Shown: piece by piece, positions 3,767-62,466 of the stretch
How the letters are laid out: each line of letters begins with the position of its first letter
Numbering within the stretch: position 1 is the stretch's first letter
Source: Candidatus Babeliales bacterium
Lineage (GTDB): Bacteria; Babelota; Babeliae; Babelales; Chromulinivoraceae
DNA: 63,583 nucleotides
Reading direction: 5' to 3'
Assembly: GCA_018062405.1 (NCBI GenBank)
Contig: JAGOSF010000008.1
Span: forward strand, 1 to 63,583
The notes under the pieces: model-generated
Told to the model about the DNA's origin: nothing
Database searches by the model: none
What the model saw: only the letters and a program-made list of their open reading frames with translations
Made by a program: the position numbers and the translations under genes

Positions 3767-3769
3767 AAT

Positions 3770-3829
3770 TGAACGATGTAACAAAAGATTCTATGGTTGA
3801 TGATAAAATTTATAGAAAAGGCTTATAAA
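3770..3829 (+). pseudogene. remnant of the 3' end of a small exported-protein gene
   Basis: A frame here reads KLNDVTKDSMVDDKIYRKGL then stop. This closely matches the C-terminus of the 84-aa exported protein at 8589-8843 (PDITQDSMVDHDGIYGKGL, stop), including DNA-level identity through the DSMVD codons and the stop region. No signal peptide or start precedes it, so it looks like a duplicated fragment. A conserved C-terminal tag motif is an alternative reading. Confidence 0.6.
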
Positions 3830-3872
3830 TATTTAAGCTATTTCGGTTCTTTAGATGCAACTACCAAAATTA

Positions 3873-3905
3873 GATAATTAAAATTGATGAACTATTTTAA
3901 TTATC
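3873..3905. terminator. AT-rich hairpin at the sulfatase 3' end
   Basis: GATAATTAAAAT (3873-3884) and ATTTTAATTATC (3894-3905) form a perfect 12-bp inverted repeat with a 9-base loop. It overlaps the sulfatase stop codon and lies between two convergent genes. It may be a weak bidirectional terminator; there is no GC-rich core. Confidence 0.4.
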
Positions 3906-28697: not shown

Positions 28698-29537
28698 ATG
28701 AATATTACAAAAATTATTATCCCTGCTGCTGGAATTGGAAGCCGTTTTTTACCAATTACCAAATCAATTCCAAAAGAAATGCTTCCCCTTTCTAACAAAC
28801 CTGCAATCGAACATATTGTACAAGAAGCTTTCGATGCTAATCTTATCAATGTTGGTATTATTTTATCACCAGAAAAAAATGTGATCAAAGAATATTTTGA
28901 AGAAAATACTCATCTTGATAAAATTTTAGCTGAAAAAAATCAACAGTTTCGAGTTGAAACCGTTAATAATTTAATTAAAAATATAGATTTTTCTTATTAT
29001 TATCAGTACAAACCTGCTGGCGTTGCCGATGCTTTAATGCAAGCAAAACAACTAATTAACCCAAATGAATTCTTTGCCGTTTCATACCCTGATGATATTA
29101 TTTTTGGCAAAAACCCAGAAATTTTAAATTTAATGCACATTGCACGATCAATGAAAGGCATGGTCATTGGCGTACAGGAAGTTCCAGTCGAACAAATTTC
29201 ATCGTACGGCGTAATTTCCATAGAAAAGCAAATTAATGATACCTGCTACAAAATTGCAAGTTTAGTAGAAAAACCAAAAGTTCAAGACGCTCCATCAAAC
29301 CTTGCAATCGTTGGACGATATGTTTATCATTATGATCTTTTTAATTTTATTCCTCAAACTCCACTTGGCAACTCCCAAGAAATTGTTTTACCCGAAACGA
29401 TCAACTTAATGATACAACATGGCTATCCTGTTTTTGCTGTTAAAATTCAAGGCCAAAGATTTGATACAGGAACACCTCAGGGATGGCTCAATTACATCAT
29501 TCATCATAATAATCTTGAGCAACACCGCCAACTTTAA
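28698..29537 (+). CDS. galU: UTP-glucose-1-phosphate uridylyltransferase
   Basis: Makes UDP-glucose from UTP and glucose-1-phosphate for envelope polysaccharides and glycolipids. The nucleotide-binding start IIPAAGIGSRFLPITKSIPKE is diagnostic (key residues G-x-G-S-R and K-P-E-M-L), with KPAIEHIVQEA next. Later YKPAGVADALMQAK, SYPDDIIFG and LVEKPK match the GalU family, and the C-terminus has GQRFDTGTPQGWLNY. At 279 aa it is full length. It starts two bases after pheS, so it is probably co-transcribed although functionally unrelated. Confidence 0.95.
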   Translation: MNITKIIIPAAGIGSRFLPITKSIPKEMLPLSNKPAIEHIVQEAFDANLINVGIILSPEKNVIKEYFEENTHLDKILAEKNQQFRVETVNNLIKNIDFSYYYQYKPAGVADALMQAKQLINPNEFFAVSYPDDIIFGKNPEILNLMHIARSMKGMVIGVQEVPVEQISSYGVISIEKQINDTCYKIASLVEKPKVQDAPSNLAIVGRYVYHYDLFNFIPQTPLGNSQEIVLPETINLMIQHGYPVFAVKIQGQRFDTGTPQGWLNYIIHHNNLEQHRQL

Positions 29538-30010: not shown

Positions 30011-33000
30011 ATGAACTTCATTCAAAAAAAAATTATATTTATAGTATCTCTCATCATAGCAACACAACAAATTAATGCTGGGCAAAACTTAACTTCGATT
30101 TTTACCAATAATACTGGTTATTCTTGTAACTTTGTTGATGGTGTAAAATCTCCTATTGTCGTTCCAAGCGGAAAATCATTAACTTACACCTTTACATCAA
30201 GCCCTCTATCTTACACATTTGGACCAAATCCAACACCGCTTGGAGGCAGTCCTAATGGAACAATTGGATACACAAGCTCAAATAATAAACTTACGAGAAC
30301 AACTTTGTCCGGATCTCGCTTCTTAAATGACACGAACGTTTTCCAAATTTATATTGCTTATCGAACCTCCACAGGATCTTCACTCAAAACAATTTTAAAT
30401 ATGGGGTCTGGTACAACTTTAAATAACGTAACGATAACCCAAATTGGCGCTAACCCATTTAGTTCTGGCTCTATTTCAAGCGCGCCAAAAGCAGCTTCTT
30501 TTACTATCAATTCCAGTGGTGCTACAATTCAAACCATTCAAGGAAACATAACCAATAATTCTTCTGCCAACAGCACAAACGTCACCTTTTATGGATCTTC
30601 AATAATAAAAAATGCTGATATTAATGCTGGAGCATCAGCTCTTATTCCTCTAGGTTCTACCTTCATGAATTGCATAAATACTATTATGCAAACACCTCCA
30701 AATTATTATATCTCCGTTCCTGTATCTGTAACAACTTCATCAAATATATTTGCTGCCGGATCAGTCACTAATACAAGCAACTCAACAGTTTATTGTGTAT
30801 TTATCGGAACAATTAATGGGGATCCTAATTATGCATTAGCTTATGGATCTTCTCTTGCAGGTAAAGGAAGTTTGCCAATTATAACAGGCACTACAAGACT
30901 TGAAATTTATGGTAGTCGCAATCAAAATTATACCGTCAGTAACCTTTTAGCGTCTAAAACAATTGACGCAAATTCATCATGGTACGTTAATCATAATAAT
31001 GGAACATGGACGATAGATGCAACCGCGTTGCAAGGAACATTACTCAATAACTACTACACAGCAACATCAACTATTTATTTCAACAGTCCTTCAACACAAT
31101 CAAGCATTTCATCTTTAAGCGGATGGGGAACAACTCCAATTGCATCTGATGTTATCAATCTTTCTTGCAGAGGGCTTGTTAATGGAGGATCTTTTGATAT
31201 TACAACAAATAATAGTGATCTGAATATCTATACAGATTCAGTTATAACCAATAGTAGTGATGCAAATATATATCTACGATATTACGCTCCTACTGATATT
31301 GGAGGATACACGATATATCCTGGCCAATCTCTTCCATTAATTACAACAAAAAACTCTTTAAATATCAGCGCAGAAATTAATGGTACTGTTGTTGCGACAG
31401 CTACAATTAATAAAAACACATCATATCGAATCGTCTACACAGGTTCTGCCTACAATATAAATGCTTACACTCCGCTGCTATCAAATAACAATAGCTTGGC
31501 GATCAATTCTCTTATTTTTTACAGATCAAATAACACCGTCATCGATAACTCACAGACGACGCTTAGTCCCTATGCAACTTATGCAACTCCTACAGCATCT
31601 TCATTTATGACTTTTTCTTACCTAGGCTCTCTCATCTACATGCCTATAACATTTCCAACCATGCTGAATGTCTTTACAGGCAATTATATTACCAATAGCT
31701 CTGGGCAAAATGTATCAATAGATTATTATGGGGATTATAATTTTGGAACAAACAGACAACTTACCTATCCTGCAATTGCAACCGCAAGCAATCAAACGAT
31801 TCCTATTTCAACAGGCGCTTTAAACGGTATCGTGTACGACTCTTCTGGACAACGAGTAATTTCTTCAACAGCCTTGACTCAAGGAGTCTCTTACAGAATT
31901 AATTATATCGATGGCATTTGGTCTTTGATACCGACCAATGCTCCATCAAGTTTTACACTGACCAATAATTTTAGCTCACCAACTTCGACTATAATTTTTT
32001 ATGACAGCTCTGCAAAAGTCATCGATACTATAAGCTCGATAGCAGCTCGTAGCTCTGTCAATATCCCAACAAACACTGCCAGAATCTATTGCACAGGATT
32101 AGTCAATGGAAGTAGCTGCACAATTTATGCAACAGATACTCAATCAATTAATATTTATACAAATTATGCTCTGACTAACAATGCAAGCAGCTCTATAACA
32201 GCAACCTATTATGGTTCAAATAGCTCATCAGTTATTAATGGATCAGTTACAATTCCTGCTGGGCAATCGGTTTATATGATTACAGGAACTACAGGTATTT
32301 CTACCTCATCAATTGATTACACTCAAATTAGTCAAAGCTCATCATATTATATCTATAACATCAATAGTAATTGGTATTTAACCGACTATCTTGCTTCAAA
32401 TTATGTCATTACCAACAACTATGATCTACCAACTTCGACCATAACTTTTTATAATAGTTCATCAGCGATTATTACAACGATTGAATCAATAGCTGCACAA
32501 AGTTCTCTGCTCATTCCAGCAGGAACAACAAAAATATATGGAACTGGCTTAATTAATGACAGCAGCTGCTACATCAACAAAAATAGCTCTGCATCTTTTA
32601 ACATTTACACAAATTTTACACTTGATAACCTATCAACAGAAACAGTCAAAGCTCTTTATTATGACACAACCAGCACATCAACACCCATAACTACAATTTC
32701 GATTCCTTCAGAAGAAGATATTCCCTTTATTACCGGCACAACCGCTGTCGCAATTAAATCTGCCTCTGATACAATCCTCATTCCTTACACAATGCTAATT
32801 CCTAATGATTCATATTTTATTTCCAACACAACTGATGGATGGCATTTGACTGCTTACGATCCATCAGAGCATCATCTATTTAATAACTCAGCAACTAACA
32901 CTTCGACCATCAGTTTTTACGATATAAACTTACAACTCATTGCATCGATCTCATCAATTCCCGCAAATGATTCTGTATTAATTCCTGATGGCACACGATC

Positions 33001-36000
33001 AATTGTGGCAACTGGATTAGTCAATGGCAGTAGTTGCACCATCCAAACAACGGGAACAGAATCGTTAAATATATATTCAAATTACAAACTTACCAACAAC
33101 TCAACTTCAACGGTTGTTGTCACCTATTACGGATCAAACAGCCAATTTCAGATTAATGGAACTGTCACCATTCCTGCTGGTCAATTTGTGCATCTTGTCA
33201 CCAGCACCACTGGAATATCTACACCTTCGATTGCCTACACACCAATCAGTAAGAATAGTTCTTATTATATTTATCATGTCGGCGGCTCTTGGTCTTTAAC
33301 AAACTATCTTGCATCTATCTATTCGATCACGAATAATTACAGCTCACCAACTTCGACCATGACTTTTTACAATAGTTCAGCTGCAATTTTAGCAACAGTT
33401 TCATCAATTCCAGCACAAGGTTCTGTGCTCATTCCAACTGGAACGACCAAAGTAAACGGTACAGGGTTAGTAAACAACAGTAGTTGTAATATTAATAAAA
33501 ACGATACCGCTTCTTACAATATTTATACGAATTTCACCTTGACTAATTTATCGACAGAAACCGTCTCTACTGTCTATTACGGCCTGAATAGTTCATCAAC
33601 CGTCAATGGATCAGTAGCGATCCCAGCATCAGGATCTGTGCCAATGATCACAACTATCACTGGAATTTCTATACAAACATCTGCTGGAGTAGAACTTGTT
33701 CCTTATCAAGCAACGAGTAACAATTCTTCATATTTTATTAATGATATTAATGGAACATGGTCACTGACAACCTACGATGCTTCTGCATATACACTCACGA
33801 ACAATGCTGCAACTGCTACATCGACCATCACCTTTTATAACAGCACAAACAAAGTTATTGGTTCTGTTGCATCTCTTGGGGCAAATAAATCTGTGCTCAT
33901 GCCAGAAGGCACCATAAAAATTTATTGCACAGGATTAGTCAATGAAAGTAGTTATACGATTCATACAACAGGAAATGAATCGATCAATATTTATACAAAT
34001 TACAGTTTAACCAACCATGCAGCAACGCCAATTCTTGTAACCTATTATGGCTCACAAAGTTCATCAGTTATTAATGGTTCTATTACGATTGCAGCGGGCC
34101 AATCGGTTGCAATCGTCACTGGAACAACAGGTATTTCTACTCCATCGATTGCCTACACGCAAATTAGTCAAAGCTCGTCATATCAGATTTACAACATCAA
34201 TAGTACTTGGTATTTAACTGACTATCTTGCTTCAAATTATGTCATTACCAACAACTATGATCTGCCAACTTCGACCATGACTTTTTACAATAGTTCAGCT
34301 GTAATTTTAGCAACAGTTTCATCAATTCCAGCACAAAGTTCTGTGCTCATCCCAGCTGGCACAACCAATGTTTATGGAACTGGTTTAATTAATGATAGTA
34401 GCTGCTATATCAACAAAAACAGCTCTGCATCTTTTAACATTTACACAAATTTTACACTTGATAACCTATCAACAGAAACAGTCAAAGCTCTTTATTATGA
34501 TACGACCAGCACATCAACACCGACTGGCATAATTACCATTCCTTCAGAAGAAGATATTCCCTTTATTACCGGCACAACCGCTGTCGCAATTAAATCTGCC
34601 TCTGATACAATCCTCATTCCTTACACAACGCTAATTCCTAATGATTCATATTTTATTTCCAACACAACTGATGGATGGCATTTAACTGCCTACGATCCAT
34701 CAGAGCATCATCTATTTAATAACTCAGCAACTGACACTTCGACGATCAGTTTTTACGATATAAACCTACAACTCATTGCATCGATCTCATCAATTCCCGC
34801 AAATGATTCTGTATTAATTCCTGATGGCACACGATCAATTGTGGCAACTGGATTAGTCAATGGCAGTAGTTGCACCATCCAAGCAACAGGAACAGAATCA
34901 TTAAATATTTACTCAAATTACAAACTTACCAACAACTCAACTTCAACGGTTGTTGTCACCTATTACGGATCAAACAGCCAATTTCAGATTAATGGAACTG
35001 TCACCATTCCTGCTGGTCAATTTGTGCATCTTGTCACCAGCACCACTGGAATATCTACACCTTCGATTGCCTACACACCAATCAGTAAGAATAGTTCTTA
35101 TTATATTTATCATGTCGGCGGCTCTTGGTCTTTAACAAACTATCTTGCATCTATCTATTCGATCACGAATAATTACAGCTCACCAACTTCGACCATGACT
35201 TTTTACAATAGTTCAGCTGCAATTTTAGCAACAGTTTCATCAATTCCAGCACAAGGTTCTGTGCTCATTCCAACTGGAACGACCAAAGTAAACGGTACAG
35301 GGTTAGTAAACAACAGTAGTTGTAATATTAATAAAAACGATACCGCTTCTTACAATATTTATACGAATTTCACCTTGACTAATTTATCGACAGAAACCGT
35401 CTCTACTGTCTATTACGGCCTGAATAGTTCATCAACCGTCAATGGATCAGTAGCGATCCCAGCATCAGGATCTGTGCCAATGATCACAACTATCACTGGA
35501 ATTTCTATACAAACATCTGCTGGAGTAGAACTTGTTCCTTATCAAGCAACGAGTAACAATTCTTCATATTTTATTAATGATATTAATGGAACATGGTCAC
35601 TGACAACCTACGATGCTTCTGCATATACACTCACGAACAATGCTGCAACTGCTACATCGACCATCACCTTTTATAACAGCACAAACAAAGTTATTGGTTC
35701 TGTTGCATCTCTTGGGGCAAATAAATCTGTGCTCATGCCAGAAGGCACCATAAAAATTTATTGCACAGGATTAGTCAATGAAAGTAGTTATACGATTCAT
35801 ACAACAGGAAATGAATCGATCAATATTTATACAAATTACAGTTTAACCAACCATGCAGCAACGCCAATTCTTGTAACCTATTATGGCTCACAAAGTTCAT
35901 CAGTTATTAATGGTTCTATTACGATTGCAGCGGGCCAATCGGTTGCAATCGTCACTGGAACAACAGGTATTTCTACTCCATCGATTGCCTACACGCAAAT

Positions 36001-39000
36001 TAGTCAAAGCTCGTCATATCAGATTTACAACATCAATAGTACTTGGTATTTAACTGACTATCTTGCTTCAAATTATGTCATTACCAACAACTATGATCTG
36101 CCAACTTCGACCATGACTTTTTACAATAGTTCAGCTGTAATTTTAGCAACAGTTTCATCAATTCCAGCACAAAGTTCTGTGCTCATCCCAGCTGGCACAA
36201 CCAATGTTTATGGAACTGGTTTAATTAATGATAGTAGCTGCTATATCAACAAAAACAGCTCTGCATCTTTTAACATTTACACAAATTTTACACTTGATAA
36301 CCTATCAACAGAAACAGTCAAAGCTCTTTATTATGATACGACCAGCACATCAACACCGACTGGCATAATTACCATTCCTTCAGAAGAAGATATTCCCTTT
36401 ATTACCGGCACAACCGCTGTCGCAATTAAATCTGCCTCTGATACAATCCTCATTCCTTACACAACGCTAATTCCTAATGATTCATATTTTATTTCCAACA
36501 CAACTGATGGATGGCATTTGACTGCCTACGATCCATCAGAGCATCATCTATTTAATAACTCAGCAACTGACACTTCGACGATCAGTTTTTACGATATAAA
36601 CTTACAACTTATTGCATCGATCTCATCAATTCCCGCAAATGATTCTGTATTAATTCCTGATGGCACTCGATCAATTCTGGCAACTGGATTAGTCAATGGC
36701 AGTAGTTGCACCATCCAAACAACGGGAACAGAATCGTTAAATATATATTCAAATTACAAACTTACCAACAACTCAAGTTCTGCCGTTGTCGCAACCTATT
36801 ATGGTTCAAATAGTCAGTCTCAAATTAATGGAACTGTCACGATTCCCGCTGGTCAATTTGTTCACATTATTACAAGCACAACTGGAATATCTACACCTTC
36901 GATTGATTATACTCCAATCAGTAAAAATAGTTCTTATTATATTTATCATGTCGGCGGCTCTTGGTCTTTAACAAACTATCTTGCATCTATCTATTCGATC
37001 ACGAATAATTATAGCTCACCAACTTCGACCATGACTTTTTACAATAATTCATCACAGATCATTGGGACGGCCAATAGTATACCTGCTACAAGTTCTGTGC
37101 TCATCCCAACTGGAACAACCAAAGTAAACGGTACAGGATTAGTCAACAACAGTAGTTGCGACATTCATAAAAACGATGCTGCTTCTTACAATATTTATAC
37201 GAATTTTACGTTAACTAATTCATCGACAGAAATCGTCAATGCAATTTATTATGGACTTGATGATCCATTAATCGTGAATGGTTCTATATCGATTCCAGCT
37301 TCAAGCTCTGTAGCTATAATAAACAGTTCTACGGGCATTTCAGTTGAATCGACAGTTCACGAAGAACTTGTTTCTTACACTGCAATCATTAATAATGCTT
37401 CATATTTTATTAATAATATTGATGGAACCTGGTCATTAATAACCTATGGACCAACAGCATACACCCTCACAAATAATTCATCTGCTGATACTTCAACGGT
37501 AACTTTTTATGATGAAAGATTAACACCAATAAGCCAAACAAATCTCATAGCTGCAGGAAATTTTGAATTAATTCCACTTGGAACAAGTCAAATTCATGCA
37601 ACTGGATTAGTCAATGATAGTAGTTGCATACTTTATTCAACAGGAACAGAATCTTTAAATATTTACTCAAATTATACACTTACCAACAACTCGACATCTG
37701 GAATTACTGCAACCTATTATGGCTTAGACAGTCAAAATATCATCAACGGTTTTGTGACGATTGCAGCTGGGCAAAATGTTCCTTTTATAACCGGAACAAC
37801 TGGCGTTTCTACAGGATCGATTCCTTATACACCAATTACAGAAAACTCATCCTATTTTGCAAATCATATCGGCAGTAGTTGGTTTTTAACCAATTATGAA
37901 GCATCAGACTTTGCAATTACTAACAACTATGATCTGCCAACTTCAACAATAACTTTCTATGATTCAACAGCGCAAACGATTGCAACTATTTCATCAATTC
38001 CAGCACAAGGTTCTGTGCTCATCCCAACTGGAACAACTAGCGTTTACGCAACTGGATTAATCAATAATAGCAGCAGTTATCTACAAATCGATGATAGCGT
38101 CGCTTCAAATATTTACACAAATTTTACGCTCACAAATTTATCAACTGACAATATCTCTGCTGTTTTGTATGGCCTTAACAGTTCATCGGTTATCAATGGT
38201 TTAGTTTCGATTCCGTCAGAAGAATCGATTCCATTTATTACCAGCACAACGGGGATTGCAATTCAATCCCCAACTGGCACGACCGTTATTCCTTACACAT
38301 CATTAATTGCAAATGATTCTTATTTTGTTACGTACAACACAACTGATGGATGGCATTTAACTGCTTACGATCCATCGGAGCATCATCTATTTAATAACTC
38401 TCAAGCTGATACTTCTACCATCAGTTTTTACGATATAAACTTACAACTCATTGCATCGGTCTCATCAATTGCTGCAAATGATGATGTATTAATTCCTGAT
38501 GGAACTCGATCAATTGTGGCAACTGGATTAGTTAATGGTAGTAGCTGCACGATTCAAGCAACGGGAACAGAATCATTAAATATTTACTCAAATTACAAAC
38601 TTACCAACAACTCAACTTCAACGGTTGTTGCAACTTATTACGGATCAAATAGTTCTGCAATTGTGAATGGAACTGTCAGTATACCTGCTGGCCAATTTGT
38701 ACATTTTGTCACAAGCACCACCGGAATTTCTACACCTACAATTGCTTACACGCCAATCAGCCAAAATTCTTCTTATTATATTAACCAGGTCAATTCTGTA
38801 TGGTCATTGACAACTTATCTAGCTTCAGATTTTACCATCACCAATAACTTTGGAAACCCAACAAAAATTATTCAATTTTATAATAGCTCTGCTCAAATTA
38901 TTGGTACAATCCCAACCATACCAGCACAAGGCTCTGTATTAATCCCAGAAAATACAACCAAAATATTAGGTGCCGGTCTTGTAAACGATAGTAACAGTTA

Positions 39001-42000
39001 CCTGCAAATTGATGACACCATTTCATCGACAATCTACACCAATCAAACGATCAGCAACTTATCAACCGATACGGTTAAAATAGTTTTGTATGGGCTTGAT
39101 AGTTCTTCGACAGTCAATGGATCAGTACTAACCCTTTCTGAGCAATCGATTCCATTCATAACTTCTACCACAGGAATTTCTGTACAATCAACATCTGGCA
39201 TTCCATTAATTGCCTTTACTGCAATCGAAGACAGCGCATCCTATTTTATCAATCATGTCGATGGCGTTTGGTCTTTAACTACCTATGGGCCATCAATTCA
39301 TACTTTAACCAACAACTCAACTTCCGCTACCTCTGCAATTAATTTTTATAATGAATCTTTAGAATTACTTGGATCTGTTGACACAGTTGCAGCTGAAGCT
39401 TCGATCTTATTACCTGCTGGCACCGTAGAAATTCATGCAACTGGATTAGTCAATGATAGTAGTTGCATACTTTATTCAACAGGAACAGAATCTTTAAATA
39501 TTTACTCAAATTATACACTTACCAACAACTCGACATCTGGAATTACTGCAACCTATTATGGCTTAGACAGTCAAAATATCATCAACGGTTTTGTGACGAT
39601 TGCAGCTGGGCAAAATGTTCCTTTTATAACCGGAACAACTGGCGTTTCTACAGGATCGATTCCTTATACACCAATTACAGAAAACTCATCCTATTTTGCA
39701 AATCATATCGGCAGTAGTTGGTTTTTAACCAATTATGAAGCATCAGACTTTGCAATTACTAACAACTATGATCTGCCAACTTCAACAATAACTTTCTATG
39801 ATTCAACAGCGCAAACGATTGCAACTATTTCATCAATTCCAGCACAAGGTTCTGTGCTCATCCCAACTGGAACAACTAGCGTTTACGCAACTGGATTAAT
39901 CAATAATAGCAGCAGTTATCTACAAATCGATGATAGCGTCGCTTCAAATATTTACACAAATTTTACGCTCACAAATTTATCAACTGACGATATCTCTGCT
40001 GTTTTGTATGGCCTTAACAGTTCATCGGTTATCAATGGTTTAGTTTCGATTCCTTCAGAAGAATCGATTCCATTTATTACCAGCACAACGGGGATTGCAA
40101 TTCAATCCCCAACTGGCACGACCGTTATTCCTTACACATCATTAATTACAAATGATTCATATTTTGTTACGTACAACACAACTGATGGATGGCATTTGAC
40201 TGCTTACGATCCATCAGAGCATCATCTATTTAACAACTCTCAAGCTGATACTTCAACGATCAATTTTTACGATATAAACTTACAACTCATTGCATCGATC
40301 TCATCAATTGCTGCAAATGATGATGTATTAATTCCTGATGGCACACGATCAATTGTTGCAACTGGATTAGTCAATGGTAGTAGTTGTACGATTCAAACAA
40401 CGGGAACAGAATCATTAAATATTTACTCAAATTACAAACTTACCAACAACTCAACTTCAACGGTTGTTGCCACCTATTACGGATCAAATAGTTCTGCAAT
40501 TGTGAATGGAACTGTCAGTATCCCTGCTGGCCAATTTGTACATTTTGTCACAAGCACCACTGGAATTTCTACACCTACAATTGCTTACACGCCAATCAGC
40601 CAAAATTCTTCTTATTATATTAACCAGGTCAATTCTGTATGGTCATTGACAACTTATCTAGCTTCAGATTTTACCATCACCAATAACTTTGGAAACCCAA
40701 CAAAAATTATTCAATTTTATAATAGCTCTGCTCAAATTATTGGTACAATCCCAACCATACCAGCACAAGGCTCTGTATTAATCCCAGAAAATACAACCAA
40801 AATATTAGGTGCCGGTCTTGTAAACGATAGTAACAGTTACCTGCAAATTGATGACACCATTTCATCGACAATCTACACCAATCAAACGATCAGCAACTTA
40901 TCAACCGATACGGTTAAAATAGTTTTGTATGGGCTTGATAGTTCTTCGACAGTCAATGGATCAGTACTAACCCTTTCTGAGCAATCGATTCCATTCATAA
41001 CTTCTACCACAGGAATTTCTGTACAATCAACATCTGGCATTCCATTAATTGCCTTTACTGCAATCGAAGACAGCGCATCCTATTTTATCAATCATGTCGA
41101 TGGCGTTTGGTCTTTAACTACCTATGGGCCATCAATTCATACTTTAACCAACAACTCAACTTCCGCTACCTCTGCAATTAATTTTTATAATGAATCTTTA
41201 GAATTACTTGGATCTGTTGACACAGTTGCAGCTGAAGCTTCGATCTTATTACCTGCTGGCACCGTAGAAATTCATGCAACTGGATTAGTCAATGATAGTA
41301 GTTGCATACTTTATTCAACAGGAACAGAATCTTTAAATATTTACTCAAATTATACACTTACCAACAACTCGACATCTGGAATTACTGCAACCTATTATGG
41401 CTTAGACAGTCAAAATATCATCAACGGTTTTGTGACGATTGCAGCTGGGCAAAATGTTCCTTTTATAACCGGAACAACTGGCGTTTCTACAGGATCGATT
41501 CCTTATACACCAATTACAGAAAACTCATCCTATTTTGCAAATCATATCGGCAGTAGTTGGTTTTTAACCAATTATGAAGCATCAGACTTTGCAATTACTA
41601 ACAACTATGATCTGCCAACTTCAACAATAACTTTCTATGATTCAACAGCGCAAACGATTGCAACTATTTCATCAATTCCAGCACAAGGTTCTGTGCTCAT
41701 CCCAACTGGAACAACTAGCGTTTACGCAACTGGATTAATCAATAATAGCAGCAGTTATCTACAAATCGATGATAGCGTCGCTTCAAATATTTACACAAAT
41801 TTTACGCTCACAAATTTATCAACTGACAATATCTCTGCTGTTTTGTATGGCCTTAACAGTTCATCGGTTATCAATGGTTTAGTTTCGATTCCGTCAGAAG
41901 AATCGATTCCATTTATTACCAGCACAACGGGGATTGCAATTCAATCCCCAACTGGCACGACCGTTATTCCTTACACATCATTAATTGCAAATGATTCTTA

Positions 42001-45000
42001 TTTTGTTACGTACAACACAACTGATGGATGGCATTTAACTGCTTACGATCCATCGGAGCATCATCTATTTAATAACTCTCAAGCTGATACTTCTACCATC
42101 AGTTTTTACGATATAAACTTACAACTCATTGCATCGGTCTCATCAATTGCTGCAAATGATGATGTATTAATTCCTGATGGAACTCGATCAATTATGGCGA
42201 CTGGATTAGTTAATGGTAGTAGCTGCACGATTCAAACAACGGGAACAGAATCATTAAATATTTACTCAAATTACAAACTTACCAACAACTCAACTTCAAC
42301 GGTTGTTGCAACTTATTACGGATCAAATAGTTCTGCAATTGTGAATGGAACTGTCAGTATCCCTGCTGGGCAATTTGTACATTTTGTCACAAGCACCACT
42401 GGAATTTCTACACCTACAATTGCTTACACGCCAATCAACCAAAATTCTTCTTATTATATTAACCAGGTCAATTCTGTATGGTCATTGACAACTTATCTAG
42501 CTTCAGATTTTACCATCACCAATAACTACAGCAGTGCGACAACTGCTATAACTTTCTACAATCAAAATGCTCAAACTATTGCAACGATACCTTCAATTGG
42601 AGCTCAAGCTTCCATACTTATTCCAACTGGAACTCAAAGAGTATATGCTACAGGGTTAGTTAACCATAGTAACAGCTATTTGAATATCGACGATACAGCT
42701 TCATGCACAATTTATACTGATAATACAATCTCAAATTTATCGACTGAAAGTGTAAAAATAATTTATTATGGCCTTGATAGTTCTTCTGTTATCAATGGAT
42801 CTGTCGTCACTACTTCTGAAGATTTAACCCCTCTCATAACATCTGCTACAGGGATTTCTATTCAATCAATAACAACTGGATTTTCTTTAATTGCTTATAC
42901 TCCATTAGTTCAAAATTCAACCTACTTTATTTCAAACCTTAATGGTATATGGTCTTTAACTACGTATGGACCATCTGCGCATACCTTAACCAATAACTCG
43001 ATCCAAGCAACCTCAACAATTAATTTTTATAATAGCTCTGCAGAACTTATAACATCAGTTGATTCCATCGCTGCTGAAGGCTCTGTACTCATTCCAGATA
43101 ATACTGCAACTATCGAAGCTACAGGACTTGTTAATAATAGTAGTTATATTATACGCACCAACGGAACCGAATCCTTCAACATTTATACCAATTATACACT
43201 GGCAAATAATTCTTCTGATGATATCGTTGCAATCTATTATGGCTTAGATAGTTCATCAACCATCAATGGATCTGTTACTATTCCAGCTGGTCAATATGTG
43301 TATATTATCACGACCACAACAGGCATTTCTATTGAATCTTTAGATGCAGAAGTTTTAGTTGAATATACATCTATCCAAGATGATAGATCCTACTTTATTA
43401 ATCATATCGATGACGTATGGTCACTGAGTTCATACACCCCAAAAATTCATAACAATAGCTCAGAAAACGGAACAAATCTAACTTTCTTTAATCTTGCTGG
43501 TGGTGTTGTTCTTTATGTTGGTGATATCGCAACAGGAGGTACAATAACAACACCAATCAATGCAACATCTCTTTCTATTGATATGTATAATTCAACCCTG
43601 ACGATAGCAACAAGCTTTGCAGCTGATGCATATCTTTTTACGAATAACACGGTAACAAATTACTCATCAGAAACGATTGATATTAATTTCTATAGCCCAA
43701 CAAATAATGGCATAACTCCATTATTAAATAGCCCTAGCATCACAGTTGCTGCAGGACAAAGCATACCAAGAATTTCTACGAGCACATCGCTTGCTGTCGC
43801 TTCTGGAAATTCATCAGTTATTCCTCAAACTTCACTCCTTGATGCTACCTCATATTTTGTTAACTATTACCCTGACGTCAATCAATGGACTTTATCAGAT
43901 TCTATTCCAGTATCAAATGCACGCTTAATTAACAACTACAATCAAACGCTGACCGATCTAAAATTTTACACCGATGACGATGACACAACTCCTGTTCAAA
44001 TCGGCACAACAATACCAACTTTTGAAGCGTATGAATCTACATCGATTCCAACCAATAGCATCGCAACAGAATTTGTTCAAGATTTTAATAGCGTAGATTC
44101 TACGATAAAGTTTTCTATAGAAGAAACTTCAACGGATATTTTTACTGGATTTATTATTCATAATAATACAACAGAAAATGTCGATATTTGGTTCTATACT
44201 CAAGAGCAAGCAACTTTATTAAACAACCCTGCGATACGAACCGTGCCTGGGCAATCAATACCAATCATCACAACAACTGGTAAAGTCATGATCACCAACA
44301 CAACCTATATTAATGCATCTCCAACTGAAACCTATATCCCAATCACCGAAATTACAGAAAATAGATCGTATTATATAATTTATGATGCAACAGCAGAACC
44401 TACATGGCAACTTGTTCCATCACTGCCAGAAAATGCATCCTATTTTACCAATAACTACAATGATCTTGGAATAAATCTTGCTTTCTATGACACAAACAAT
44501 CAACAACAGGGAACAACTTTACCAGAATTTGTTGCGTATAGTTCGACAACAATTCCTCTCTCATCGGTCTATGCAACATTAACATATTTTAACTCGAATA
44601 TTACCGTCCCTGTTTCGAGCTTTGTATCATCGGGAATATTTAGTAATTATGACATTTTAAATAATACAGGCCAAACAATCGAAATAGAATTTTTTGGAAC
44701 AGTTAATGGCCAAACCAATCAACCTTTGAACACCAGTCGAATTATCAATAACATAGCATCAAATAATATAACCCCAATTATTACTGGCGCTACAAAATTC
44801 AATATTTATGATACAAACGGTATTTTACAAGCGACACAAAATGTTATAACACCAAGTACCGATTATACCATCACTAATCCATGGATTATTACACCAACAG
44901 CTCCAGCTAAACTCACCAACAATGCAGGGCAAGATACAACAAATCTTATTTTCTATGATATTACAACACCCATTGGCGATCCTGTTGCTGTTTTTCATAA

Positions 45001-47194
45001 TCAAACAGCTATCGATATTCCAAGCACTGCAACAGTAGCTTCGACACAAGCAATTTTTAATCAGATTGCTTCAACAGTAAAAGTTGCTGTTTCAACTGCT
45101 TTCTCTTCAGAACTTTTCACTGACTATACGATCTATAACAATTCTGTAGAAACAGTCACTCTTACATTTCATGGAACACTCAATAGCATCAGTGGACAAA
45201 ATCTTAACACACCAGAAATTTCAATCGCTCCATTTCATGCAGTTGCAATTTTGACGGGAGCTACAACCGTGTCTGTTACATTTAACCATTCAGTTGTTAT
45301 TTCAAATGCAACGATAGAACCAAGTACAAATTCCTATATCAACTATATTGATGGAGATTGGAGTTTTGACACTTTTGCTTCGATTGCAACTCTAACAAAC
45401 AATTCAACAAGTAGTGCAATAGATCTTATATTTTATGATAGTGAAAATACAGTTATCACAACAAATGCAACGATGACTGCTTATGAATCAAAACCTACGC
45501 CAACCAATGCAACTGTAGCCTCTGCCCATTATCTGACTCCTTTTAACTCAGTATTATCAACGCCTATTTCAGGCGCTGCTTTTTCAACATTTTTTAACAC
45601 AACAAACTCTATTCTTACGAATTCATCGACAACAGAAATTCAAGTTATTTTTTACGGGACGCTCAATGATGTTACAGCGTCACCATTAAATAACCCTGAT
45701 ATTACCATCGAAGCAGGCGGATCTATTCCAATTATGAATGGAGCAGAAAGTTTTACGATACTCATCGATGGCAATAATCCGGTTATTGTTACCTATCCTA
45801 TTGAAATTAATGAATCATACACCATCATAAAAAATGTTGAAGCTGATAATGATGCTTGGACTGTTCAAGAATCTGTTTATGCAGCAACCCTACATAATAA
45901 TCATAATGAAGATGGATCTTCTCTTATGTTCTTTGATCTCAATGATAACCAAATTAATACAACTCAAACAACATTTCCAGCATTTGCTTCTGCAGGTATT
46001 CCTAACAATGTGGTAAAAGCATCATATAACAATTTAAATGCAACTTTAACATTCCCTGTCTCTTCAACTGCCTCATCAAATGTTTTCACGAGCAAGCTTT
46101 ATAATAGAACAGCTTCCACCATCAGTATTAATTATTATGGGACCAACGATACGTTATTAAATAACCCTGCTATCACCTGTTCTTCTGCGAAATCAGTTCC
46201 TATACTTTCTGCAACAGAATATATGATTATCTATGATGAAAGCTCTTCTGTTATTGATTCAAGAATAGATTATGGCCCGATACTTCCTTTAAATATAGCT
46301 TATGACATCGTCAAAAATCCAAATTGGAATATCATTCCTCATCAACTTAATTTCACTAATAATTTTTATCAGGCTGCAAGTTCAGTTCAATTTTATGATA
46401 TCTATAACAGATTAATTTCAACAACAACAATACACCCTTTTGGAACAGTCTTTATTCCATCAAGCCCACAAGCAATTATTGCAATTATTGAATATGAAAA
46501 CTATTCAATAATTGTTCCATTATCAACAACAAATTCTTCAAATGTCTTCACCAATAATCTTCTAACTAATGGATCCAATGATGACCTTTTCATTATTTTT
46601 TACGATGCATCAAATAATGCTTTAAATAATGAGCCAATTCTCTTGCAAGCTGGTACAGCTATCCCTTTTATTAACGGAACTATGTTTATAACTGTTATTG
46701 ATAATGATACAGCGATTATTGCAAATAACCTGATTATACCAACAGAATCATATAAAATCATAGAAACGAGAATGAGAAGTCTTGAGCTGAGAACAACCCA
46801 AGATGTCAGCATTCAACCTCATTCATCAGCCTTAAATGTTATTCGATTACTTGGAGGATCAACTGCCCCAACAACGACAACACCTGGTGTACAAACATAT
46901 GGTAATAATCAAGACCTCTTTAAAGAATTTTTATATGTCAGCCTTTACGCAAAAATCATTACTGATCTTACAGCTCGAACCGCATCAATAAGCGCTGTTA
47001 ATGCAATCATCAATGACTTTGCGATAACTTATGAAAATCAATCTGATTTTAATTATATTGCCTATTTATACCTCATGAATCCTCAACTCAAAACAGCTCA
47101 AGCAACCATGAAAAGTCTCTTCCCAAGCTCAGCACAACAAATTAATATATTCTTCAACTACTTACAAAAACGAAATAATAGTTTATTACAATGA
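30011..47194 (+). CDS. giant exported tandem-repeat surface protein, 5727 aa
   Basis: A single frame of 17.2 kb, roughly 600 kDa. The signal peptide is IIFIVSLIIATQQINA. The N-terminal domain begins TSIFTNNTGYSCNFVDG and runs to about residue 713. Then about 25 modules of about 153 residues follow to about residue 4390. Each has two beta-rich halves: one with TNN-S-T-STITFYNSS...IPAQGSVLIP-GT and TGLVNDSSC, the other NIYTNYTLTNNST...YYG-NSS-INGSVTIPAGQ...TSTTGIST...SYYI...WSLT. About 1340 diverged residues end in a helical domain (EFLYVSLYAK, YLMNPQLK, YLQKRNN). Composition is Ser/Thr/Asn/Ile/Tyr-rich with few charges. The ribosome site is AAAAAGGA. It leads an operon with the delta-60 protein and a shorter paralogue. 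Function is probably surface or adhesive; no catalytic motif or LPxTG/autotransporter domain is visible. Confidence 0.93.
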   Translation: MNFIQKKIIFIVSLIIATQQINAGQNLTSIFTNNTGYSCNFVDGVKSPIVVPSGKSLTYTFTSSPLSYTFGPNPTPLGGSPNGTIGYTSSNNKLTRTTLSGSRFLNDTNVFQIYIAYRTSTGSSLKTILNMGSGTTLNNVTITQIGANPFSSGSISSAPKAASFTINSSGATIQTIQGNITNNSSANSTNVTFYGSSIIKNADINAGASALIPLGSTFMNCINTIMQTPPNYYISVPVSVTTSSNIFAAGSVTNTSNSTVYCVFIGTINGDPNYALAYGSSLAGKGSLPIITGTTRLEIYGSRNQNYTVSNLLASKTIDANSSWYVNHNNGTWTIDATALQGTLLNNYYTATSTIYFNSPSTQSSISSLSGWGTTPIASDVINLSCRGLVNGGSFDITTNNSDLNIYTDSVITNSSDANIYLRYYAPTDIGGYTIYPGQSLPLITTKNSLNISAEINGTVVATATINKNTSYRIVYTGSAYNINAYTPLLSNNNSLAINSLIFYRSNNTVIDNSQTTLSPYATYATPTASSFMTFSYLGSLIYMPITFPTMLNVFTGNYITNSSGQNVSIDYYGDYNFGTNRQLTYPAIATASNQTIPISTGALNGIVYDSSGQRVISSTALTQGVSYRINYIDGIWSLIPTNAPSSFTLTNNFSSPTSTIIFYDSSAKVIDTISSIAARSSVNIPTNTARIYCTGLVNGSSCTIYATDTQSINIYTNYALTNNASSSITATYYGSNSSSVINGSVTIPAGQSVYMITGTTGISTSSIDYTQISQSSSYYIYNINSNWYLTDYLASNYVITNNYDLPTSTITFYNSSSAIITTIESIAAQSSLLIPAGTTKIYGTGLINDSSCYINKNSSASFNIYTNFTLDNLSTETVKALYYDTTSTSTPITTISIPSEEDIPFITGTTAVAIKSASDTILIPYTMLIPNDSYFISNTTDGWHLTAYDPSEHHLFNNSATNTSTISFYDINLQLIASISSIPANDSVLIPDGTRSIVATGLVNGSSCTIQTTGTESLNIYSNYKLTNNSTSTVVVTYYGSNSQFQINGTVTIPAGQFVHLVTSTTGISTPSIAYTPISKNSSYYIYHVGGSWSLTNYLASIYSITNNYSSPTSTMTFYNSSAAILATVSSIPAQGSVLIPTGTTKVNGTGLVNNSSCNINKNDTASYNIYTNFTLTNLSTETVSTVYYGLNSSSTVNGSVAIPASGSVPMITTITGISIQTSAGVELVPYQATSNNSSYFINDINGTWSLTTYDASAYTLTNNAATATSTITFYNSTNKVIGSVASLGANKSVLMPEGTIKIYCTGLVNESSYTIHTTGNESINIYTNYSLTNHAATPILVTYYGSQSSSVINGSITIAAGQSVAIVTGTTGISTPSIAYTQISQSSSYQIYNINSTWYLTDYLASNYVITNNYDLPTSTMTFYNSSAVILATVSSIPAQSSVLIPAGTTNVYGTGLINDSSCYINKNSSASFNIYTNFTLDNLSTETVKALYYDTTSTSTPTGIITIPSEEDIPFITGTTAVAIKSASDTILIPYTTLIPNDSYFISNTTDGWHLTAYDPSEHHLFNNSATDTSTISFYDINLQLIASISSIPANDSVLIPDGTRSIVATGLVNGSSCTIQATGTESLNIYSNYKLTNNSTSTVVVTYYGSNSQFQINGTVTIPAGQFVHLVTSTTGISTPSIAYTPISKNSSYYIYHVGGSWSLTNYLASIYSITNNYSSPTSTMTFYNSSAAILATVSSIPAQGSVLIPTGTTKVNGTGLVNNSSCNINKNDTASYNIYTNFTLTNLSTETVSTVYYGLNSSSTVNGSVAIPASGSVPMITTITGISIQTSAGVELVPYQATSNNSSYFINDINGTWSLTTYDASAYTLTNNAATATSTITFYNSTNKVIGSVASLGANKSVLMPEGTIKIYCTGLVNESSYTIHTTGNESINIYTNYSLTNHAATPILVTYYGSQSSSVINGSITIAAGQSVAIVTGTTGISTPSIAYTQISQSSSYQIYNINSTWYLTDYLASNYVITNNYDLPTSTMTFYNSSAVILATVSSIPAQSSVLIPAGTTNVYGTGLINDSSCYINKNSSASFNIYTNFTLDNLSTETVKALYYDTTSTSTPTGIITIPSEEDIPFITGTTAVAIKSASDTILIPYTTLIPNDSYFISNTTDGWHLTAYDPSEHHLFNNSATDTSTISFYDINLQLIASISSIPANDSVLIPDGTRSILATGLVNGSSCTIQTTGTESLNIYSNYKLTNNSSSAVVATYYGSNSQSQINGTVTIPAGQFVHIITSTTGISTPSIDYTPISKNSSYYIYHVGGSWSLTNYLASIYSITNNYSSPTSTMTFYNNSSQIIGTANSIPATSSVLIPTGTTKVNGTGLVNNSSCDIHKNDAASYNIYTNFTLTNSSTEIVNAIYYGLDDPLIVNGSISIPASSSVAIINSSTGISVESTVHEELVSYTAIINNASYFINNIDGTWSLITYGPTAYTLTNNSSADTSTVTFYDERLTPISQTNLIAAGNFELIPLGTSQIHATGLVNDSSCILYSTGTESLNIYSNYTLTNNSTSGITATYYGLDSQNIINGFVTIAAGQNVPFITGTTGVSTGSIPYTPITENSSYFANHIGSSWFLTNYEASDFAITNNYDLPTSTITFYDSTAQTIATISSIPAQGSVLIPTGTTSVYATGLINNSSSYLQIDDSVASNIYTNFTLTNLSTDNISAVLYGLNSSSVINGLVSIPSEESIPFITSTTGIAIQSPTGTTVIPYTSLIANDSYFVTYNTTDGWHLTAYDPSEHHLFNNSQADTSTISFYDINLQLIASVSSIAANDDVLIPDGTRSIVATGLVNGSSCTIQATGTESLNIYSNYKLTNNSTSTVVATYYGSNSSAIVNGTVSIPAGQFVHFVTSTTGISTPTIAYTPISQNSSYYINQVNSVWSLTTYLASDFTITNNFGNPTKIIQFYNSSAQIIGTIPTIPAQGSVLIPENTTKILGAGLVNDSNSYLQIDDTISSTIYTNQTISNLSTDTVKIVLYGLDSSSTVNGSVLTLSEQSIPFITSTTGISVQSTSGIPLIAFTAIEDSASYFINHVDGVWSLTTYGPSIHTLTNNSTSATSAINFYNESLELLGSVDTVAAEASILLPAGTVEIHATGLVNDSSCILYSTGTESLNIYSNYTLTNNSTSGITATYYGLDSQNIINGFVTIAAGQNVPFITGTTGVSTGSIPYTPITENSSYFANHIGSSWFLTNYEASDFAITNNYDLPTSTITFYDSTAQTIATISSIPAQGSVLIPTGTTSVYATGLINNSSSYLQIDDSVASNIYTNFTLTNLSTDDISAVLYGLNSSSVINGLVSIPSEESIPFITSTTGIAIQSPTGTTVIPYTSLITNDSYFVTYNTTDGWHLTAYDPSEHHLFNNSQADTSTINFYDINLQLIASISSIAANDDVLIPDGTRSIVATGLVNGSSCTIQTTGTESLNIYSNYKLTNNSTSTVVATYYGSNSSAIVNGTVSIPAGQFVHFVTSTTGISTPTIAYTPISQNSSYYINQVNSVWSLTTYLASDFTITNNFGNPTKIIQFYNSSAQIIGTIPTIPAQGSVLIPENTTKILGAGLVNDSNSYLQIDDTISSTIYTNQTISNLSTDTVKIVLYGLDSSSTVNGSVLTLSEQSIPFITSTTGISVQSTSGIPLIAFTAIEDSASYFINHVDGVWSLTTYGPSIHTLTNNSTSATSAINFYNESLELLGSVDTVAAEASILLPAGTVEIHATGLVNDSSCILYSTGTESLNIYSNYTLTNNSTSGITATYYGLDSQNIINGFVTIAAGQNVPFITGTTGVSTGSIPYTPITENSSYFANHIGSSWFLTNYEASDFAITNNYDLPTSTITFYDSTAQTIATISSIPAQGSVLIPTGTTSVYATGLINNSSSYLQIDDSVASNIYTNFTLTNLSTDNISAVLYGLNSSSVINGLVSIPSEESIPFITSTTGIAIQSPTGTTVIPYTSLIANDSYFVTYNTTDGWHLTAYDPSEHHLFNNSQADTSTISFYDINLQLIASVSSIAANDDVLIPDGTRSIMATGLVNGSSCTIQTTGTESLNIYSNYKLTNNSTSTVVATYYGSNSSAIVNGTVSIPAGQFVHFVTSTTGISTPTIAYTPINQNSSYYINQVNSVWSLTTYLASDFTITNNYSSATTAITFYNQNAQTIATIPSIGAQASILIPTGTQRVYATGLVNHSNSYLNIDDTASCTIYTDNTISNLSTESVKIIYYGLDSSSVINGSVVTTSEDLTPLITSATGISIQSITTGFSLIAYTPLVQNSTYFISNLNGIWSLTTYGPSAHTLTNNSIQATSTINFYNSSAELITSVDSIAAEGSVLIPDNTATIEATGLVNNSSYIIRTNGTESFNIYTNYTLANNSSDDIVAIYYGLDSSSTINGSVTIPAGQYVYIITTTTGISIESLDAEVLVEYTSIQDDRSYFINHIDDVWSLSSYTPKIHNNSSENGTNLTFFNLAGGVVLYVGDIATGGTITTPINATSLSIDMYNSTLTIATSFAADAYLFTNNTVTNYSSETIDINFYSPTNNGITPLLNSPSITVAAGQSIPRISTSTSLAVASGNSSVIPQTSLLDATSYFVNYYPDVNQWTLSDSIPVSNARLINNYNQTLTDLKFYTDDDDTTPVQIGTTIPTFEAYESTSIPTNSIATEFVQDFNSVDSTIKFSIEETSTDIFTGFIIHNNTTENVDIWFYTQEQATLLNNPAIRTVPGQSIPIITTTGKVMITNTTYINASPTETYIPITEITENRSYYIIYDATAEPTWQLVPSLPENASYFTNNYNDLGINLAFYDTNNQQQGTTLPEFVAYSSTTIPLSSVYATLTYFNSNITVPVSSFVSSGIFSNYDILNNTGQTIEIEFFGTVNGQTNQPLNTSRIINNIASNNITPIITGATKFNIYDTNGILQATQNVITPSTDYTITNPWIITPTAPAKLTNNAGQDTTNLIFYDITTPIGDPVAVFHNQTAIDIPSTATVASTQAIFNQIASTVKVAVSTAFSSELFTDYTIYNNSVETVTLTFHGTLNSISGQNLNTPEISIAPFHAVAILTGATTVSVTFNHSVVISNATIEPSTNSYINYIDGDWSFDTFASIATLTNNSTSSAIDLIFYDSENTVITTNATMTAYESKPTPTNATVASAHYLTPFNSVLSTPISGAAFSTFFNTTNSILTNSSTTEIQVIFYGTLNDVTASPLNNPDITIEAGGSIPIMNGAESFTILIDGNNPVIVTYPIEINESYTIIKNVEADNDAWTVQESVYAATLHNNHNEDGSSLMFFDLNDNQINTTQTTFPAFASAGIPNNVVKASYNNLNATLTFPVSSTASSNVFTSKLYNRTASTISINYYGTNDTLLNNPAITCSSAKSVPILSATEYMIIYDESSSVIDSRIDYGPILPLNIAYDIVKNPNWNIIPHQLNFTNNFYQAASSVQFYDIYNRLISTTTIHPFGTVFIPSSPQAIIAIIEYENYSIIVPLSTTNSSNVFTNNLLTNGSNDDLFIIFYDASNNALNNEPILLQAGTAIPFINGTMFITVIDNDTAIIANNLIIPTESYKIIETRMRSLELRTTQDVSIQPHSSALNVIRLLGGSTAPTTTTPGVQTYGNNQDLFKEFLYVSLYAKIITDLTARTASISAVNAIINDFAITYENQSDFNYIAYLYLMNPQLKTAQATMKSLFPSSAQQINIFFNYLQKRNNSLLQ
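32690..36780 (+). repeat. near-identical tandem DNA repeat, period 1836 bp
   Basis: Sequence from about 32690 recurs almost unchanged 1836 bp later and again to about 36780 (about 2.2 copies). For example 33114-33299 equals 34950-35135 at the protein level in two frames. One period is 612 codons, i.e. four modules of 153 residues. Flanking modules are more diverged. Boundaries are approximate. Confidence 0.88.
37592..42524 (+). repeat. near-identical tandem DNA repeat, period 1839 bp
   Basis: Copies start at 37592, 39431 and 41270; the third ends near 42524 (about 2.7 copies). Identity is very high, with only scattered substitutions. One period is 613 codons, again four modules. It is a second amplification, distinct from the 1836-bp block upstream. 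Confidence 0.92.
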
Positions 47195-48469: not shown

Positions 48470-51400
48470 ATGAAATTCATAAAAAATCTCATCTTTTTTT
48501 CATTAATTTTTATAACAGAAAATATTTTTGCAAATAATTTAACGATGACCATCACAAATAACACTGGTTATAGTTGTAACTTTATTGATGGAACTAAAAC
48601 ACCAATCGCTGTTGAAAATGGAGCGTCATTAACCTATACCTTTACATCAAGTCCTCTTTCTTATTCTTTTGGTCCAAACGGCATACCAATAACAACAAGC
48701 GCAACAAGCGGTACGATTGGCTACGATAGCATTTCAAATAGTTTCAGCCTTTCATCTGTTTTTACCCCAGGATGGTACAATTCCAGCACATCACCTTTTC
48801 AAATTTATCTAACAGGGTATCAGTCTAGTGGGAACACTAAAATTTTAAATAAAAATAGTTCTCTTGAAGGATCTGCAGTAGTTTCTGGGCCTATTGGAGC
48901 TTATCCCTTGTATTCAGGTTCATTATCAAGCGCGCCAGCTTCTGCAACATTTACACTCAATAGCTCAACTGGGGCTATTATTCAAACTATTCAAGGTAAT
49001 CTAACTAATAATTCCAACACCATAGCTTATGGTTTACAATTTTATGATTCAAATGGCCAAAGCAGCTATGTATCAAGCCTTGCAGCAAATGCAACAACCC
49101 TAAAACCAAACAGTTCAACATCGGTCAAGCTCAATAATCAAGCATTATCCAATGACAGTTCTCAAACTTTTTTTGTTACTGTAGATCCAAGCACTGCTTC
49201 ATCAAATATATTTGGATCTGGCTCTGTTATCAATACAAGCTCTCAAACAGTCTATATAAATTATACAACAACTCTTGGAGCGCAAGGACGATTTAATCTT
49301 AACGGCTCGTATGCAAGCAAACCTATTATTACCGGCACAAGTTATCTCAACGTTTATCCTTCTTCGTCATCAAATACCGTCCTTGTAGGCAAAACTATTG
49401 ATGCAAATTCAACATGGTACATTAACAGCACCAACGGAGTCTGGACGATTGACTTAGCGCCCATAACAACAACTCAAACAATGCTCAATAATTATAATCA
49501 AGCAACAGGACAAATAACTTTTTATAATAGCTCAACAGGAGTATCATCCTACCTCAACTCACTCAATAGTTGGGCTCAAACATCAATTCCAACAGGAACA
49601 ACAAAAATTACATGCACTGGATTAGCAAATAATGGTACTTTTTATTTTATACCCGCTGATAAATTTAATATGTATACAAATTCTGTTATCACCAATAGTA
49701 GTTCGTCAAGCAATAATATTATACTTTATGCCAGTGGAGTTGCTCCTATAAATAATCCTTCAGGCTCATATACGATCAATAAAAATCAATCGCTTCCGTT
49801 AGTCACTGGAGAAACGCACATACACCTTTATGAAGGCTCTACTATTTTTGCTGAATTCGATGCTCAACCAAACACATCCTACAATATTACGGGAATAACA
49901 GGGAGTTTAATGGTACAACCCTATACTCCCCGACTTCAAAATAACTCAAGTCAACAGATCACCAATCTTGATTTTTATAATTCAAATAATCAGAAAACAA
50001 CTTATGAATCATCACTTGCAGCTGGCGGCTATTATACAACTCCAACAACAACCTCATTTTTAAAATTTGATTTTATAGCAAATTCAAGAAGTTCAAATAT
50101 TACCGTACCCATAACTTTTCCTTTAGAACTTGACCTGCTGACTGACAATACGATCACCAACAGCTCTGGGGAAATTGTCCAGATTAACTATTATGGCAAC
50201 TATAACCTTGCAACCAATAGCTTACTGACAACACCTGCACTTTCGATGGCTGCAGCTCAAATTCTTCCAATTTTTACAGGAGCTTTAAACATTCAAGTTC
50301 TTGATGTTGATGGTAACGAAATTATTCCATTAACAGCTTTAGCCCCTGGGGTATCCTACTTCATTCTTTATAATTCTGGGGTCTGGAGACTTTCAACAAC
50401 AAACGACTCTGGTTTTTATCTAACGAATAATTCAAGCCAAGCAACGTCGACAATTACCTTTAAAGATTCTTTTGATACCTTGCTTGGATCAACTCCAGAA
50501 ATTTTAGGAGGAGGTTCATATCCAATTCCTTTTGACACAGCAAAAATTGAATGCACAGGCTTAATCAACGATAATAGTTGTAATATTCAAGCAACAGACA
50601 GTGCAAGTATCAATATTTACAATGGTTATGTGCTCACCAATAATACCGATTATGAAATTGTTGCAACCTACTATGGTTTAGAAAATAGTGTAACCGTCGT
50701 CAATGGAACTATTGCAATTCCTGCTCGAAGATCTGTCGACGTTCGATCCCTCTTCCCAATCGTCACGAGTACCACAAAGATATCAGTCACGCAAAATTCA
50801 ACAATTGTTATACCACAACAATCTATCGTAAACACCGCTTCTTACATTATTAATTTTGATGGCGTCATGACGTGGAGTATGGATACTTATACCCCAACGC
50901 TTCAGAACAACAGTTCACAAAATGGTACCAACCTTACCTTTTTTACCCCAACTGGTGGAGTCATTTCATCTGGAACAGATTTTCCTGCTGGAACAACCAT
51001 AACAAATCCATCCAATGGAGCATCAGCATCAGTTTATATCTATGGAACAACGCTTACAATTCCAATAGATTTAGGTAATGATTCATATCTTTTTACCGAT
51101 TACACCGTGACCAACCTTGCAACAGAAACCGTTGATGTTACCTTCTATGGGCCATCAGTTGATGAAAAAACTCCCCCATTAAATAACCCTGGCTTTGCTG
51201 TGTTTGCTGGTCAAAATATTCCTATCATCACTGGCAGTACCTCGATTTCTGTCCTTGCTGGAGGAACTTCTGCAATCCCTCAAACATCTATAGTTGCAGA
51301 CTCTCCATATTTTATAAACTCTACCGCTGCAGCATCCCCATCTTGGTATCTATCAACATCAATACCTTTATCAAATGCACTCTTTATTAATAATTATAAT

Positions 51401-62321: not shown

Positions 62322-62466
62322 TATGTTTCCTTTTTGCAACTTCAAAATCATGATCAAAGTTATAAATCTCTGCTATTTTTAAAGCAAAGTTTCTTATTGT
62401 AATAATTTTAGCAATTTCAGCCCATAAAAGTATATAAATTTTAAAAAACTTTACGACTCAGTGAAA

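Follow-up and report, generated by a model that had tools for sequence, protein, structure and literature searches.

Four-module periodicity in a giant repeat protein of a Candidatus Babeliales bacterium: a likely recombination-tuned stalk in which near-identical modules never adjoin

The locus analyzed here raises the question of how a single reading frame of more than 17 kb can be assembled from near-identical stretches of DNA while the protein it encodes keeps near-identical modules apart from one another. The window, by which we mean the whole stretch of DNA analyzed, comprises 63,583 nucleotides of contig JAGOSF010000008.1 (GenBank assembly GCA_018062405.1) from a Candidatus Babeliales bacterium, and its source genus is likely Candidatus Chromulinivorax, the name borne by P0010, a relative of the giant protein. 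The frame in question runs for 5,727 codons with no internal stops (Table 1). An earlier note on this DNA had presented it as one of the largest bacterial frames to be expected in a small genome; its length of 5,727 aa over 17 kb stands, and its claim to exceptional size does not, since comparable giants, of 3,000-8,000 aa, have already been published for a 1.5 Mb genome (PMC12863079, in the passages available).

The explanation we favor, with somewhat more confidence than doubt, is that the gene encodes a secreted, surface-displayed fibre in which one slot holds 25 modules, has grown by recombination between four-module units and provides a length-adjustable stalk. Under this explanation, slot 4 of an 11-module plan would most likely have grown through recombination between copies of a four-module unit, and the product would take the Sec route for export, its predicted helical C-terminal domain serving to retain it. 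Each recombination event would make the array four modules (1.84 kb, ~612 aa) longer or shorter, and the fibre with it, while leaving every neighboring pair of modules less than 50% identical, and the stalk would contact the protist host or other cells. What we infer in this scheme, from the analyses that follow, is the location at the surface, the shape of a fibre and ongoing variation in length.

A profile of the repeat module identified 35 homologous modules of ~153 aa in the 5,727-aa giant, arranged in a 3 + 25 + 7 plan. The 25 modules of the central array, each 150-157 aa long and together spanning residues ~647-4475, all matched the profile strongly (199-227 bits each); the earlier placement of about 25 modules of ~153 aa at residues 714-4390 refers to this same array, read in a shifted phase. 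The neighboring paralogue presents 11 matched modules in a 3 + 1 + 7 plan and ends in the same C-terminal domain as the giant. Because the two proteins differ in length by 3,658 aa, or 23.9 times 153 aa, the gap between them arises almost wholly from the number of modules in slot 4 (25 versus one). Three relatives from other assemblies (P0003, P0004 and P0006; 2,203-2,240 aa) contain 11, 10 and 11 matched modules, respectively, and each shows one strong match in slot 4 (148, 95 and 117 bits). The paralogue (174 bits) and the three relatives (95-148 bits) thus match the profile better in slot 4 than in their other matched slots (2-66 bits), and since all four proteins have a single strong module at this position, the ancestral slot 4 likely held one module. 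At only ~49% identity to the short paralogue, P0003, P0004 and P0006 do not qualify as strains.

Table 1. Coordinates of the giant gene, its repeats and the neighboring genes in the 63,583-nucleotide window
Feature	Position	Strand	Remarks
Nucleotidyltransferase (GalU-like)	28698..29537	+	Conserved left flank
Small ORF, 73 aa	29635..29856	+	Borders the cassette on its left; G001 and G002 have similar-looking ORFs (by eye) in the corresponding position
Giant module protein	30011..47194	+	35 modules between a start resembling a signal peptide (by eye) and a helical C-terminal domain
Scaffold modules 1-3	30539..31948	+	Common to giant and paralogue; profile matches
Array 1, m01-m12	31949..37456	+	Four-module unit in three copies; period 1836 bp
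1,607-bp exact direct repeat	33077..34683	+	Second copy 34913-36519; offset 1836
Array 2, m13-m24	37457..42976	+	Four-module unit in three copies; period 1839 bp
926-bp exact direct repeat	37590..38515	+	Second copy 41268-42193; offset 3678; array 2 units 1 and 3
1,266-bp exact direct repeat	38723..39988	+	Second copy 40562-41827; offset 1839
Capping module m25	42977..43435	+	DNA 56-63% identical to that of every other array module (24)
Seven C-terminal scaffold modules	43436..46771	+	Slots 5-11 of the 11-module plan; profile matches
C-terminal helical domain, ~100 aa	46898..47191	+	In the genus, also terminates secreted-type proteins of a different kind
DUF5122 / delta-60-repeat propeller protein, 414 aa	47215..48459	+	Between giant and paralogue
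Paralogue, 2,069 aa	48470..54679	+	11 modules, same scaffold as giant, slot 4 unamplified
Lone slot-4 module of the paralogue	50411..50890	+	Module alignment and profile
Branched-chain amino-acid transporter	55087..56250	+	Conserved right flank

Within slot 4 of the giant, two classes of module alternate along the 25-module alignment, with odd-numbered modules of 150 aa, even-numbered modules of 156-157 aa and a last module, m25, of 153 aa. The earlier note had described two recent copying events of four-module blocks, with periods of 1836 and 1839 bp and distinct templates. Both periods are borne out by exact runs of 1,607 and 1,266 bp at those offsets, and recent four-module amplification from different template blocks holds as well, but the two isolated duplications give way to two arrays of three units each, with divergent edge units, plus m25. 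Inner copies reach 100% DNA identity. At the edges of array 1, the identity is 72% for m01 against m05 and m09 and 75% for m12 against m04 and m08; the corresponding figures for array 2 are 85% for m13 against m17 and m21, and 66% for m24 against m16 and m20.

The near-identity of modules follows a strict register. Among the 300 module pairs, 27 share at least 80% of their amino acids, and all 27 lie at separations of 4, 8, 12, 16 or 20 modules; adjacent modules are 40.7-49.3% identical in all 24 pairs. At the DNA level, no shared run exceeds 18 bp at odd separations or 37 bp at separations of 2, 6, 10, 14, 18 and 22; the longest runs measure 43-67 bp at separations of 12, 16 and 20, and at separations of 4 and 8 they cover whole modules, extending up to 1,607 bp at the four-module separation. 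Among the offsets listed for the giant gene, no exact match of at least 25 bp falls at an odd-module offset. Homologous recombination requires shared runs longer than 18 bp and, because odd-register copies share no more than that, it would act in four-module steps, so that changes are likely restricted to plus or minus four modules (612-613 aa). An even register is also apparent in P0008 and P0009, the two further members of the family in which duplications are visible: the maximum identity is 42% for adjacent modules and 73% at a separation of two in P0008, and 36% and 64%, respectively, in P0009. Strong duplication is absent from P0007 and P0010, where the best identities over 150 aa are 33% and 41%. 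Selection need not have shaped the four-module register, which may have followed passively from the early divergence of the two module classes. Its higher-order pattern resembles, as a pattern only, the super-repeats of titin and nebulin, eukaryotic muscle proteins whose equivalent positions resemble each other more closely than neighbors do.

The distribution of differences among units bears on how the arrays arose. In array 2, 22 of 1,839 sites distinguish U1 from U2, and every one falls inside unit positions 561-1133; between the first two units of array 1 (from 33077), 10 of 1,836 positions vary, confined to the last two bins. Taking evenly spread differences as the null model, with 20,000 random placements per comparison, the longest identical run exceeded random expectation in all three unit comparisons (p <= 5e-5). 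Since its 10 differences all fall in the last two bins, array 1 taken by itself could be accounted for by plain copying. Synonymous divergence between the arrays depends on position in the unit, with dS values of 1.43 (m01/m13), 0.77 (m02/m14), 0.49 (m03/m15) and 1.95 (m04/m16), those above 1 being near saturation, and a single block duplication would not give such a profile. Unequal crossing-over in tandem arrays leaves a homogenized center and divergent edges, and the clustered differences and divergent array edges observed here are the signature of unequal crossing-over or conversion. The earlier suggestion that homologous recombination is the likely driver is in keeping with both observations.

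Neighboring homologous domains in long proteins are usually less than 50% identical, which is read as protection from misfolding, and Periscope Proteins are described as an exception to this rule (PMC8201768, PMC9704523 and PMC4660218, in the passages available). Like the Periscope Proteins SasG, Rib, Sgo_0707 and CdrA, as portrayed in parts of PMC8201768, the giant combines in a single chain tandem domains, which by prediction may fold singly, with high DNA identity among copies, and its copy number is expected to shift by intragenic recombination. The Periscope trait of highly identical neighboring repeats is lacking: adjacent domains are 82-100% identical in Sgo_0707 according to the same source, whereas those of the giant are 41-49% identical in 24 of 24 pairs, with identity coming back at every fourth module. 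The giant also resembles Giant1-5 of Apilactobacillus kunkeei, as described in sections of PMC12863079, in being a huge, Asn-rich, presumably secreted repeat protein encoded next to another in a small genome and in sharing its C-terminal domain with other proteins. Giant1-5 differ from it in their highly imperfect repeats, and Giant1-3 in being mainly alpha-helical, against the near-identical units and all-beta model reported here; the passages available mention no recent amplification of four modules in Giant1-5. Keyword searches of one open-access library listed no report of a Periscope-like, recombination-tuned stalk in this lineage. The giant is likely such a stalk, governed by an unusual rule under which near-identical modules never adjoin. 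Variable-length surface proteins are thought to accept the folding risk posed by near-identical neighbors, and this array would represent apparently recent homologous repeat turnover free of that risk. The rule predicts length steps of 612-613 residues, never of one or two modules.

An AlphaFold2 model of two modules (pLDDT 91.5) is all beta, and its best Foldseek match is the VAB domain of Vps13 (7u8t chain A; E 5e-9, probability 1.00). Asparagine is invariant at N8, N79, N165 and N236 in 39 of 39 rows, which overlap and are not independent, and it lies at or just past the first strand of each half-module. In the Vps13 VAB domain, every module conserves an Asn at the end of strand beta-1 (7u8t; PMC8978259, in the part available); both proteins thus end the first strand with a conserved Asn, and the giant does so in each half-module. 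Each module is predicted to consist of two beta-sandwich domains, so that the giant would form a string of ~70 small domains. A bolder version of our explanation, in which the protein founds a new class of bacterial surface fibre, with VAB-like beta modules and a four-step lock that avoids near-identical neighbors and misfolding, strikes us as possible and rather doubtful.

The N-terminus of the giant, with its basic start, long hydrophobic stretch and Ala-Gly near residue 24, resembles a signal peptide by eye. No known domain scored above its curated cut-off in the module proteins and pieces scanned, and no known anchor or adhesive domain was found among them; of the surface protein proposed in the earlier note, the secreted character is retained on the strength of the N-terminus, while display at the surface is presumed. 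Giant adhesins of the SiiE/LapA kind, secreted by type I systems, use a TolC-family outer-membrane exporter. Such an exporter (PF02321) was found in none of the three genus genomes, with the control matching 7 of 14 known genomes, whereas secretin (PF00263) yielded two matches above cut-off in each of the three, its presence in a genome being no demonstration that it exports the giant. Since the search for TolC-family exporters found none and secretins are present in all three, a Sec plus secretin route appears more likely for the giant than type I secretion.

The C-terminal domain, for which the structural model is poor (pLDDT 54.8), has eight matches in 3 of the 101 phylum genomes. Five of these eight proteins (three in G000, two in G001) are of secreted type and free of modules, and the domain is therefore portable and likely serves for sorting or anchoring. 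All three of the five that were scanned match the DUF5122 propeller. The five proteins measure 572-2,236 aa (loci L046:4264-11041, L047:5043-12178, L048:2188-6322 and L045:678-12227, in G000 and G001), and each adjoins a gene of an outer-membrane-protein-like family matched in all 101 phylum genomes. For the little-known phylum Dependentiae, the locus supplies a candidate fibre for host contact, as well as a portable C-terminal domain with a possible role in sorting.

Ordinary short reads are too short to bridge exact repeats of 1,607 bp, and the near-identical units might have been wrongly multiplied during assembly, the true gene having fewer (or more) of them. In a second assembly, P0005 comprises 3,559 aa on a 40,688-bp contig and matches the giant except at two residues, both in m16; it keeps the module order m01-m19 and ends 7 residues into m20, inside the array, which by arithmetic fits a contig starting at the window start and ending at that point. 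Two assemblies hence cover array 1 together with the larger part of units 1 and 2 of array 2, and unit 3 of array 2 is present in one, the only assembly to span the whole array; the second perhaps derives from the same reads. Because P0005 stops inside the array and differs at two m16 residues, assembly may have contributed to the exact identity and to the total number of copies, and in the fragmented relative G002, contigs C120 and C85 likewise terminate within module proteins, perhaps of the same gene. On the other hand, P0005 repeats the order m01-m19 with two differences in 3,559 residues, 15-34% of bases separate the outermost modules of each array from those inside, a divergence that no looping of the assembly would create, and a search of its own genome with the paralogue placed all module matches on the contig of the giant, with three matches elsewhere corresponding to the C-terminal domain. 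The suspicion of an artefact voiced in the earlier note is answered in part; overall, we deem wrong multiplication unlikely and ongoing length variation plausible.

Among 26 module pairs, dN/dS ranges from 0.07 to 0.49 in 20, five pairs have no differences and one has a dN of zero; these are whole-module averages, from which positive selection at a few exposed sites would escape. Selection on the modules looks purifying, and the modules constrained. This constraint weighs on the idea of a neutral expansion, by which the array would have grown through unequal crossing-over in the manner of satellite DNA, gaining length without benefit. Unequal crossing-over alone yields higher-order structure, a homogenized center and divergent edges, and the even register is automatic once two module classes have lost their long shared runs; yet the maintenance of a 17.2-kb open frame in a 1.23-Mb genome, the low dN/dS and the presence of visible repeat duplication in P0008 and P0009 as well argue against it, and we give this idea little credence, less than we give to misassembly. 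The recombination-tuned stalk is still further removed from an antigenic or phase-variable decoy, the most improbable of the alternatives and the one closest to the antigenic variation of the earlier note, in which recombination is selected for the novelty of exposed modules: recombination is clear and the N-terminus is of secretion type by eye, but antigenic diversification is unsupported because every one of the 20 pairs with a defined, non-zero dN/dS stays below 0.5, recent copies are identical, the repeats homogenize instead of diversifying, and protist hosts, to our knowledge, lack antibody-type immunity. The isolate described for the genus Candidatus Chromulinivorax infects a flagellate, according to the abstract of its description (PMC6561590).

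A profile of two modules matched 2 of the 101 phylum genomes (G000 and G002). The single contig of G001, of the same genus, carries pheS, the GalU-like gene, the small ORF and the branched-chain amino-acid transporter in this order, with no further ORF of at least 100 aa between these genes, and represents an empty site. In G002, the left flank of the giant runs into a DUF5122 gene on contig C63; on C120, a DUF5122 gene precedes the opening 631 residues of a module protein; and on C85, the last 602 residues of a module protein are followed by the transporter. The module proteins of C120 and C85 may be one gene. The DUF5122 genes of C63 (L054:1-566) and C120 (L011:1-1173), both at contig ends, are 93.4% identical over 473 bp, as would be expected of a recent duplication or of strain mixture in this relative. 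Since a relative of the DUF5122/delta-60 gene that separates giant and paralogue also lies just upstream of the module-protein start in G002, the propeller protein and the module protein may act together.

Three further features of the window deserve mention. A 632-aa protein encoded at 60459-62357 on the reverse strand has a MutS ATPase domain (PF00488) and a hydrophobic, signal-peptide-like N-terminus, with NCBIfam MutS matches far under cut-off, and is possibly a secreted MutS-like ATPase. At 27340-27431, a 12-bp tandem repeat (5.8 copies at 27363-27431) lies inside a PD-(D/E)XK transposase-family gene and is a possible site of copy-number variation. Finally, two overlapping ORFs of 261 and 128 aa at 5729-6870, also on the reverse strand, resemble by eye a single outer-membrane protein split by a frameshift.
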